This document shows positions 20,231 to 62,631 of a stretch of DNA of 64,000 nucleotides, one piece after another (positions within the stretch are counted from its first letter, which is position 1; every line of letters begins with the position of its first letter). The stretch is from contig JAENYP010000004.1 of NCBI GenBank assembly GCA_016841725.1, positions 155,542 through 219,541 on the forward strand, in the 5' to 3' direction. The position numbers were made by a program, and so were the translations under genes. Source of the stretch: Thermincola carboxydiphila (GTDB taxonomy: Bacteria > Bacillota > Thermincolia > Thermincolales > UBA2595). Under the pieces are notes generated by a model. It had not been told where the DNA came from. It made no database searches and was given only the letters and a program-made list of their open reading frames with translations.

Positions 20231-20312
20231 TTATAGCAGAAAAAAGTATCATTTACAAACCCGATAAAAAATTATATAATTATTAAATAATAACAGAGAC
20301 TTAAATTGTCTT

Positions 20313-20405
20313 TAGCTAGGGGTGCCTAAAAGGCTGAGAGGTTTTTTTCCGAGACCAACCCTTGGAACCTGAATCCCGGATAATGCCGGCGAAGGGAAGC
20401 TAGTG
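20313..20405 (+). ncRNA. TPP riboswitch (THI element)
   Basis: aggggtgcctaaaaggctgaga ... gaccaacccttggaacctgaatcccggataatgccggcgaagggaagct directly upstream of thiS. Confidence 0.96.
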
Positions 20406-20479
20406 TTTTGTTTACAAAGCAGGCTTGCCATTTGGTAAGCCTGCAGCTGTTTTCTGCGAATTCATTAATTAATAAGGTG

Positions 20480-29706: not shown

Positions 29707-29773
29707 TTCTGAATAAACAGGGCTAAGGATAGATCATGCAAATGGTCTGGGGTGAGTCGGTGAGGCGAAACCT

Positions 29774-29826
29774 GGGCACTCTAACTCTCTTCTACTAATA
29801 GAAGAGAGTCAGAGTGCCCATTTTTA
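29774..29826 (+). terminator. strong intrinsic terminator/attenuator
   Basis: gggcactct-a-actctcttcta-ctaa-tagaagagagt-c-agagtgccc followed by atttttattt. Confidence 0.9.
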
Positions 29827-38126: not shown

Positions 38127-38372
38127 AAATTTACCTTTAAAAAGACAGTGAAGGGAATAGTAAGTGTATTGTTTACCCAGCAGAGAGCCGGAATTGGTGG
38201 AACCCGGCGGAAACATGCACCGAATGCCATCCTGGAGTCACCGGGCTGAATTTTAGTAAGCTTGGTCGTATCCCGGGCGTTAACGGGAATTAAGCTGGGC
38301 TGTATTTAGCAGCCAATTAGGGTGGTACCGCGTGAGAAAGCTCTCGTCCCTTGTGGGATGAGGGCTTATTTT
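38127..38372 (+). ncRNA. T-box leader
   Basis: Stem I motifs (gaatagtaag, agagagccgg..ggtgg.acccgg), T-box aattagggtggtaccgcg at 38315-38332, terminator gctctcgtcccttgtgggatgagggc. Confidence 0.95.
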
Positions 38373-45112: not shown

Positions 45113-45692
45113 TGGTAAAGTAACCAACATCCTTATTGTAGGGGTAGGGGGTCAGGGTACTATCCTGGCCAGCAGGATATTGTCTTACCTGGCCCTGGAG
45201 GAAGGACATGATGTCAAGGTTTCTGAGATCCACGGCATGGCCCAGCGGGGGGGCAGTGTGGTAACCCAGGTAAGGATGGGTGAAAAGGTTTATTCACCTC
45301 TGATATCGGAAGGCCAGGCAGATGTAATTCTGGCCTTTGAAAGGCTTGAAGCCCTGCGCTGGGTACATTACCTGAAGAAGGACGGCACAATTATCATTAA
45401 TGATCAGGCTATAGACCCTGTACCTGTTATTTTGGGGCTTCAGGAATATCCCTCCGGAATTATTGACCGGATAAAAGGCAAGGTGCCCGACACTATTGCT
45501 GTTAATGCACTGCAGATTGCTGAAGAATGTGGCAATGCCAAGGCTTCGAATGTTGTTTTGATGGGAGTGCTGGCACGGAAAATGGGATTTGGCAAGGAGA
45601 AGTGTATCCGGGCGCTGGAGGCGAAAGTTCCGGCCAAGTTCCTGGAGCTAAATAAGAATGCCTTTGAAAAAGGCTGGAATGTGCAGGTATGA
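45105..45692 (+). CDS. iorB: indolepyruvate oxidoreductase subunit beta
   Basis: NILIVGVGGQGTILASRILSYLALEEGHDVKVSEIHGMAQRGGSVVTQVR. Confidence 0.95.
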   Translation: MSNGKVTNILIVGVGGQGTILASRILSYLALEEGHDVKVSEIHGMAQRGGSVVTQVRMGEKVYSPLISEGQADVILAFERLEALRWVHYLKKDGTIIINDQAIDPVPVILGLQEYPSGIIDRIKGKVPDTIAVNALQIAEECGNAKASNVVLMGVLARKMGFGKEKCIRALEAKVPAKFLELNKNAFEKGWNVQV

Positions 45693-45853
45693 TGTAATTA
45701 TTCTTATGATAGTGGTAGAAGTGTTCCTCCGGCGGGCTACATCTCAACCGGTTACCCAAACCCGCTAAAGCGGCTTTGGACCGGTTGACGACAGACTCCG
45801 CCTTCCGGAACACCCCTACCACTATCTTCGCTAATTACATCATAGACCTGCAC
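45681..45853. repeat. long hairpin element, copy A1
   Basis: Arms GTGCAGGTATGATGTAATTA..GATAGTGGTAG..GTGTTCC / GGAACAC..CTACCACTATC..TAATTACATCATAGACCTGCAC; core TTCCTCCGGCGGGCTACATCTC and GACGACAGACTCCGCCTTCCGGAA. Confidence 0.85.
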
Positions 45854-45932
45854 ATGGCGTTTTGGGGCCGGTTCTTCAGGAAATTATCTGCCCCTTCATA
45901 TGCCTATTGTAAATAAAGGTCATTATATATGT

Positions 45933-46006
45933 ACCGGTTGACGACAGACTCCGCCTTCCGGAACACATCTACCCCTGGCTTCGATAATCACATCATAAAC
46001 CTGCAC
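45933..46006. repeat. partial hairpin element copy A3 (74-nt direct repeat of 45780-45853)
   Basis: accggttgacgacagactccgccttccggaacac...acatcataaacctgcac; about 66 of 74 positions identical to A1 by eye; no 5' arm. Confidence 0.85.
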
Positions 46007-46090
46007 CTGCCGGTGACAACGGAGATCATGGCTGGTGCGGTTTTATCTTTGGGCCCCGATATTAATTGGGGCATTTCTTTGATTATGGAT

Positions 46091-46227
46091 ATGAAATTAG
46101 GAAGTGTCAGATATGTTCCGGAAGGATGAGACTGACGTCGACCTGCCCAGAAGCGCTTTGCGCGTGTGGCTAGCCGGTCGAGTTGTAGCCATCCTGGAGG
46201 AATTTATCTGACACTTCCTTACTTCAT
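46091..46227. repeat. long hairpin element copy C, opposite orientation to A1
   Basis: ATGAAATTAGGAAGTGTCAGATA / TATCTGACACTTCCTTACTTCAT arms; core ggatgagactgacgtc ... gagttgtagccatcc = reverse complement of the A core. Confidence 0.8.
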
Positions 46228-46280
46228 GGCTAAAAGTAAAAGGCCCCATTTAATTATGGGACCCAAGATTTTAACCCAAC

Positions 46281-62047: not shown

Positions 62048-62072
62048 AGGACTGACCGTGGGGTCAGTCTTT
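62048..62072 (+). terminator. rho gene terminator
   Basis: ggactgacc-gtgg-ggtcagtctttt. Confidence 0.75.
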
Positions 62073-62084
62073 TGGTATGTATGG

Positions 62085-62257
62085 TCAGTAGGCGCGCTTT
62101 TTTACCTTTTTGTAAATGGTGGAGATGTATTCTTCCGGAGGGCTACATCTCCGTCGGCAGCCGCTCCCGCTTCGCGGGTCACGGGCCGACGGACGACAGA
62201 CTCCGCCTTACAAAACACATCTCCACCATTCATCATAGTTGAAAAAAGCGCTACTGA
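62085..62257. repeat. long hairpin element copy A2
   Basis: Arms TCAGTAGGCGCGCTTTTTT..AATGGTGGAGATGT / ACATCTCCACCATT..AAAAAAGCGCTACTGA; core CTTCCGGAGGGCTACATCTC and GACGACAGACTCCGCCTT; inner stem CGTCGGC/GCCGACG. Confidence 0.85.
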
Positions 62258-62306
62258 AAGCATTAGCCTGGAGGACTGACACAACGGTCAGTTCTTTTTT
62301 TATCTA

Positions 62307-62565
62307 TAGCTCTTGAAATGAGCGTCATTATGGTGAGATGTTGTGCAAGATTTTCCTGGCACTGTCGCCGTGAGAAATCTTACCGAAGTTCCGATAAGCG
62401 AAGTCACGGACCGGAGCCATGGATGGCGGAGCCGCCACTGAGGCAGGAGCCGAATTGGCGGTTTAGTCCGTGGCTTCGCCAGGAACAAGGTTAGATTTCT
62501 CCGGTGGTAGTGCGGAAAATCGGTACAATGGCTCACCATAATTACATAGCCATTTCATAGAGCTT
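62307..62565. repeat. second type of long hairpin element (B)
   Basis: Arms AGCTCTTGAAATGAGCGTCATTATGGTGAG / CTCACCATAATTACATAGCCATTTCATAGAGCT, inner GCGAAGTCACGGAC/GTCCGTGGCTTCGC, apex ggcggagccgcc. Confidence 0.85.
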
Positions 62566-62631
62566 TATGTTTAAAAAATAACAAGGTAGGCAAAAATAGA
62601 GGGGAAATTGTTTTTTGGGGAGGAAGAAAAA

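Follow-up and report, generated by a model that had tools for sequence, protein, structure and literature searches.

The window analysed here, a stretch of 64,000 nucleotides from Thermincola carboxydiphila (contig JAENYP010000004.1, positions 155,542 to 219,541), contains several long hairpins in which a conserved core is set between arms that may differ from copy to copy. The question they raise is whether such elements are structured RNAs, as their paired and conserved architecture would invite one to believe, or whether their structure belongs to the DNA. We find that they form a family that is real, abundant, clade-specific and mobile, and that, on the evidence so far, it is no family of RNAs.

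Copies in the window

A preliminary description of this DNA had listed four copies, A1, A3, C and A2, and all of them are present at or near the positions it gave; when the sequence was re-read, the inner hairpins and the two blocks of the core proved to be as described. The 'split core', however, is better seen as a helix interrupted by an internal loop, GCTACA/CAGWCT. A3, rightly taken as partial, is an incomplete tandem repeat of A1's right half, and the limits of A2 have been widened to take in the whole element between two terminator hairpins. The features are as follows.

45680-45700, plus strand: left outer arm of A1, TGTGCAGGTATGATGTAATTA, which holds the final codons of the upstream gene and its stop
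45681-45853, plus strand: copy A1, a long hairpin built on the conserved core; a duplicated terminator was not detected
45832-45854, minus strand: right outer arm of A1, an inverted copy of the upstream gene end
45933-46006, plus strand: A3, partial tandem copy of the A1 right half (87% identity over 83 nt)
46051-46073: palindrome on one flank of C, likely a diverged copy of a duplicated terminator (locus L051, below the duplication threshold)
46091-46227, minus strand: copy C, full element of the CAACTC/GACGTC subtype
46242-46263: palindrome on the other flank of C
62049-62069: left terminator hairpin copy of A2, GGACTGACCGTGGGGTCAGTC, a duplicated terminator
about 62070-62272, plus strand: copy A2, a full element with a terminator hairpin on each side (first placed at 62085-62257)
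62273-62294: right terminator hairpin copy of A2, GGACTGACACAACGGTCAGTTC, a duplicated terminator followed by a T tract

The folding energies of A1, C and A2 lie 7 to 12 standard deviations below those of shuffled sequences (z −11.9, −8.5 and −6.9, respectively), and the 3′ core block has five matches in the window at up to three mismatches, against 0.71 expected. The gene upstream of A1 ends at 45692, inside the outer arm of the element. At the corresponding locus of a related genome (L060) the A1 site is unoccupied, a C-like copy adjoins the same downstream gene, and the homologue of the upstream gene ends without an inverted gene-end copy of the A1 type. Because the A1 arm includes the upstream gene end and its inverted copy, which this homologue lacks, the arms appear to be made partly at the site of insertion.

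Several other features lie in the same window. Directly after A2 comes a member of a second giant-hairpin family (62297-62585, about 290 nt, −147.9 kcal/mol), whose core is unrelated and which has tens of copies in genomes G000, G004, G005, G002 and G008; the G005 site lacks both this copy and A2. Rfam identifies a T-box leader at 38139-38354 and a TPP riboswitch at 20308-20414, and at 29768-29825 two 27-nt arms, 89% complementary, form an inverted repeat around a 4-nt loop.

Distribution and anatomy of the family

Further copies of the core, on which the preliminary description had made the existence of a family depend, were found. A covariance model of 30 pairs, built from 16 copies, gives 66 matches at E ≤ 1e-4 in the 3.88-Mb genome of the window (G000), corresponding to about 65 copies, and the exact bipartite core occurs there 20 times, while a reversed-pattern control gives none. 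With the covariance model, the family is present in all ten genomes of the GTDB class, presumably Thermincolia, at 7 to 77 copies each, whereas with the same model and stricter filters it was found in none of 289 other sampled genomes of the phylum. Exact cores were seen in records named Thermincola ferriacetica MAG, HGW-Firmicutes-14, HGW-Firmicutes-8 and SKS1.bin35; no match to the family was obtained in the plasmid collection and viral contigs searched. The preliminary description could not assign the core to a family familiar to it, which agrees with Rfam, where neither the gathering threshold (for the window) nor a relaxed E-value (for the four loci) gave a match at the copies. Genome G002 has tandem arrays of three copies (L227, 1501-2012) and two copies (L081, 1501-1803), spaced by ~200 nt.

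Elements are roughly 165-350 nt long and nearly palindromic over their whole length. Their outermost layer is made of copy-specific or subfamily arms and then a TTCC/GGAA helix; next inward is a variable helix of about five pairs (GGCGG/CCGCC, GGATG/CATCC, GAACG/CGTTC or CGACG/CGTCG), and at the centre the internal loop is followed by a helix and then by the inner hairpin. The W just inside the internal loop (CAWCTC with GACGWCAG) is paired and covaries, and the opening pair of the helix inside the loop is U-A, A-U, C-G or G-C across genera. The arms had been thought to be unrelated between full copies; this does not always hold, as many copies have ~70-nt arms in common (TTGACAAAC...GACAGGGG). 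Imperfect terminal repeats, CAGNYTNTTGACAAA, are confined to the TTGACAAA subfamily, and in one subfamily the elements end in CAGCTTATTGACAAAC...TTTGTCARCAGYCTG, while the older subfamilies, to which A1 and C belong, have no defined ends. Beyond ~230 nt the copies share no flank. Variant forms carry an internal deletion (about 48 nt) or extra branches (about 150 nt). The long cores at L101, L102, L105, L107, L109 and L121 have a branched insert in the inner hairpin, made of TACCC/GGGTA and a CTCTAAGCGCT...AGCGC...GAG hairpin. Two near-perfect hairpins follow the same plan with the core internal loop lost or replaced: one of more than 200 nt (L117, 1001-1102 and flanks) and one of about 100 nt (L108, 1001-1101 and flanks).

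Empty sites and duplicated terminators

The preliminary description missed the mobility of these elements: some sites are found empty, and many copies have, as their outermost arms, terminator hairpins that were duplicated. Comparison with two sister genomes of the same genus, G004 and G005, gave five loci that are polymorphic, the empty allele having one terminator hairpin and the filled allele an element with a hairpin on each side. At L022, one hairpin, GACCAGCACTCAGGCTGGCCGGTC, is present in G004, and two copies of it surround a ~214-nt element in G000. The A2 site is empty in G005, where it reads AAAAAGGACTGACAGCCGGTCAGTCCTTTTTT, and filled in G000 with a hairpin on each side. At L134, L136 and L147 it is G004 that holds the element and G000 that is empty; the 22-nt hairpin of L134 has the same sequence at all three of its occurrences. 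The L150 site is filled in G004, and in G000 (L257, near 5520) both hairpins stand adjacent with the element absent, which looks like an excision footprint.

Direct duplications of the flanks were detected in 24 of the 117 full copies of G000 and G004, against 1.2 expected, the threshold being set above the 99% level of mismatched flank pairs; in the other 93 a duplication was undetectable. Most of the 24 duplications are whole single hairpins of about 15-45 nt, some 100% identical, and the element starts and ends near the feet of the duplicated hairpin. The length of the duplication tracks that of the hairpin, and the target hairpins are unrelated in sequence between sites. The elements insert at intrinsic transcription terminators, and the terminator hairpin is duplicated on both sides.

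The genomic context was assessed from crude ORF calls, by which the copies lie 3′ of genes. Copies between divergent genes number none of 63 in G000 and two of 69 in G004, for comparison with five of the 34 intergenic regions longer than 60 bp in the window. Where a full-size copy lies between genes in tandem, it is mostly co-oriented with the upstream gene in G000 (28:7), and the same holds for the G004 copies without a G000 ortholog (17:2); the distance from stop codon to core has a median of about 75-80 nt. Since the target, a terminator, is itself directional, the 3′ position and co-orientation do not require an RNA function.

RNA or DNA

The preliminary description had pointed to a conserved internal loop and covarying helices as what a structured RNA or a single-strand DNA substrate would show. 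Both features are real, and the covariation is strongly significant: within one genome, 24 of the 30 pairs change on both sides, the score is 0.436 against 0.143 for shuffled alignments and 0.02-0.05 for slid ones, and double-sided changes (255) far outnumber one-sided wobble changes (7). Covariation in other genera is similar. A structured RNA, either a 3′UTR element or a processed small RNA, whose loop binds a protein and which spread and was then kept by structural selection, would account for this covariation and loop, for the 3′ position and the co-orientation with upstream genes, and for orthologous cores that are often 97-100% identical with flanks near 90%. We nevertheless regard it as unlikely. 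Over three alignments, the cells of the core pairs are Watson-Crick in 4,305 cases, G·U in 20 and A·C in 82, the cells being sequences counted and not independent events; G·U thus makes up 0.46% of core pairs (20/4,325) and is rarer than A·C. Arm pairs comprise 1,112 Watson-Crick, 47 G·U and 62 A·C. Selection on an RNA is disfavoured by these counts because own-strand G·U should then exceed A·C, which is not seen; read from the other strand the A·C excess would be one of G·U, but two outer pairs account for 47 of the 82 cells. The in-place inversion of cores described below and the lack of an Rfam match also speak against an RNA, and the orientation bias is equally expected from insertion into directional terminators. 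The conservation of cores over flanks is not significant over all 24 orthologous pairs (mean identity 0.945 versus 0.919, p=0.10). The near-absence of G·U fits maintenance of a palindrome at the DNA level better than RNA, and of the two earlier suggestions it is the single-strand or hairpin DNA substrate that fits. The family is also a caution that strong wobble-free covariation can arise from the dynamics of DNA palindromes and be taken in error for an RNA family.

Changes after insertion

For most of the copies in G000, the corresponding site of G004 holds a counterpart. Many copies have been inherited vertically, and in some the conservation exceeds that of the flanking genes, so that they could have a host function; selection on the element is possible. 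The G004 counterpart of copy C has a changed inner hairpin that is yet still paired. At three pairs of loci (L034/L137, L107/L190 and L026/L141) the core has been inverted in place with the flanks aligned, and at L025/L148 it was swapped as a block with the arms kept. The G004 counterparts of A2, L107 and L040 contain, within the internal loop of the core, another palindrome about 67 nt long. This nested palindrome, CCCCCAATCCGTTACCG...CGACGGATTGGGGG, lies at the GGG/CTACA loop in L181, L185 and L190 (all G004), is bordered by GGGGCCCCC and GGGGGGACCCCC and is missing from the G000 counterparts of these loci; L235-L237 have the nested palindrome plus an extra inner branch. One region shared between G004 (L084) and G000 (L023) is about 99% identical, where other shared loci are near 90%, suggesting a recent transfer; the neighbouring ORF differs there by a ~335-bp gap.

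An alternative is that no transposition is involved, and that homologous or microhomology exchange among palindromes, with arms generated by template switching at replication forks, produced the family. Compensated changes without wobble, the inverted gene-end copy in A1, the replacement of a core with its arms kept and the partial tandem copy A3 are all in its favour. Yet defined ends, and whole-hairpin duplications in unrelated places whose empty alleles are clean, look like transposition, and we consider this explanation highly improbable for the family as a whole, although exchange and template switching may still act on the elements after insertion.

A proposed mode of movement

The elements are probably MITE-like: mobile hairpins, non-autonomous and restricted to the Thermincola class, that target terminators by their structure and duplicate the hairpin. 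Against this reading count the failure to find a transposase with matching ends, the 93 of 117 copies in which a duplication was undetectable, the lack of defined ends in the older subfamilies, and the vertical inheritance and good conservation of copies noted above. The data suggest that the enzyme moving these elements reads the shape of DNA rather than its sequence. A transposase would use the conserved internal loops to recognize the element in its hairpin or cruciform form, and would join it, in a staggered manner, to an extruded terminator hairpin at both of the hairpin's 5′ feet; repair of the resulting gaps would leave the hairpin duplicated. Staggered joining and repair are proposed because they are the simplest reading of hairpin-length duplications. 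The arms would then consist of subfamily arms and duplicated terminators, their complementarity might be kept by arm-templated correction, and they may sometimes be extended into host sequence, as at A1.

Candidates for the enzyme were sought among known families. An end-pattern search for a parent insertion sequence or autonomous relative in G000 and G004 gave, among the selected matches that were inspected, only element copies, fragments and other hairpins. The IS1182-type transposase domain PF13751 is present in three of the ten genomes and was not detected in G000, G004 or G005, which rules it out as the partner in the genus itself. Y1_Tnp is found in seven of the ten and was not detected in G005 and G001, both of which have copies; this patchy presence rules it out as a universal partner.

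A related alternative is a REP/REPIN-like element moved by a Y1 transposase (RAYT or IS200 type) acting on single-stranded hairpins. Palindromic intergenic repeats 3′ of genes would agree with it, as would the small copy numbers (21, 7 and 11) in the three genomes in which Y1_Tnp was not detected. Of these three, however, two are rated 99% and 91% complete and the third 75%, and by coordinates no Y1 gene adjoins a copy. Target duplications, seen here, are not expected of HUH transposition. The elements also far exceed the 20-40 bp of REPs, which are defined as palindromes with GTAG or CGTC at one end (PMC3733652). We judge this alternative very unlikely, and membership in the IS1182 or REP/RAYT groups is not supported.

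Returning to a mobile hairpin that targets terminators, we tentatively suggest that its enzyme lies outside the families tested, that it identifies its targets, and likewise its own ends, by their shape as a hairpin or cruciform, joining at the feet of the target hairpin with duplication of the terminator, and that palindromes become nested in this way. This proposal is possible but doubtful; if true, giant copy-specific hairpins would be built stepwise by shape-recognizing transposition.

Comparison with known systems

Group IIC introns insert beside terminator hairpins in a fixed orientation, as do the elements described here, which are nevertheless far shorter, duplicate the target hairpin and gave no group II match in Rfam scans of the copies. 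ERIC and BIME are large imperfect palindromes that lie 3′ of genes and almost never separate divergent ones. The present family resembles ERIC, BOX and REP/BIME in its large imperfect palindromes, its 3′ position and its rarity between divergent genes, but it belongs to another lineage and shows terminator duplications, the sequences having been compared through Rfam alone; REPs differ in size and loop architecture as well. Unlike REP/RAYT elements, those of this family are ~200 nt long and have no terminal GTAG/CGTC tag, as the only occurrences of these motifs are reverse-strand ones within the core. With bacterial MITEs they share a short, non-coding, palindromic and intergenic nature, imperfect terminal repeats and target duplications; they differ in having duplications of variable, hairpin-determined length, conserved loops in the middle of the element and not just at its ends, and copy-specific arms, and no parent insertion sequence was found in the search described above.

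A close parallel in targeting is with IS1272 and TnSha1 of the IS1182 family, which also use stem-loop targets, often terminators, without shared sequence and insert at the foot of the hairpin (PMC5678879, PMC4923244). For IS1272/TnSha1, terminators were reported as targets with loss of the hairpin sequence (Furi et al. 2016, PMC4923244), and Wan et al. 2017 (PMC5678879) drew a hairpin-duplicating pathway b as a hypothetical route, the deletion pathway being the one supported for IS1272. Those elements thus delete the target hairpin without duplication, whereas here the whole hairpin is duplicated; the present family is also non-coding. In these two papers structure-targeted transposition is documented for IS1272-type elements, which destroy the target hairpin. 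The family described here is a natural record of the other outcome, with whole-hairpin duplication, alleles that are cleanly empty or filled, and duplications both recent and exact, and it shows how an element can spread via gene ends while sparing, and even doubling, the terminator.
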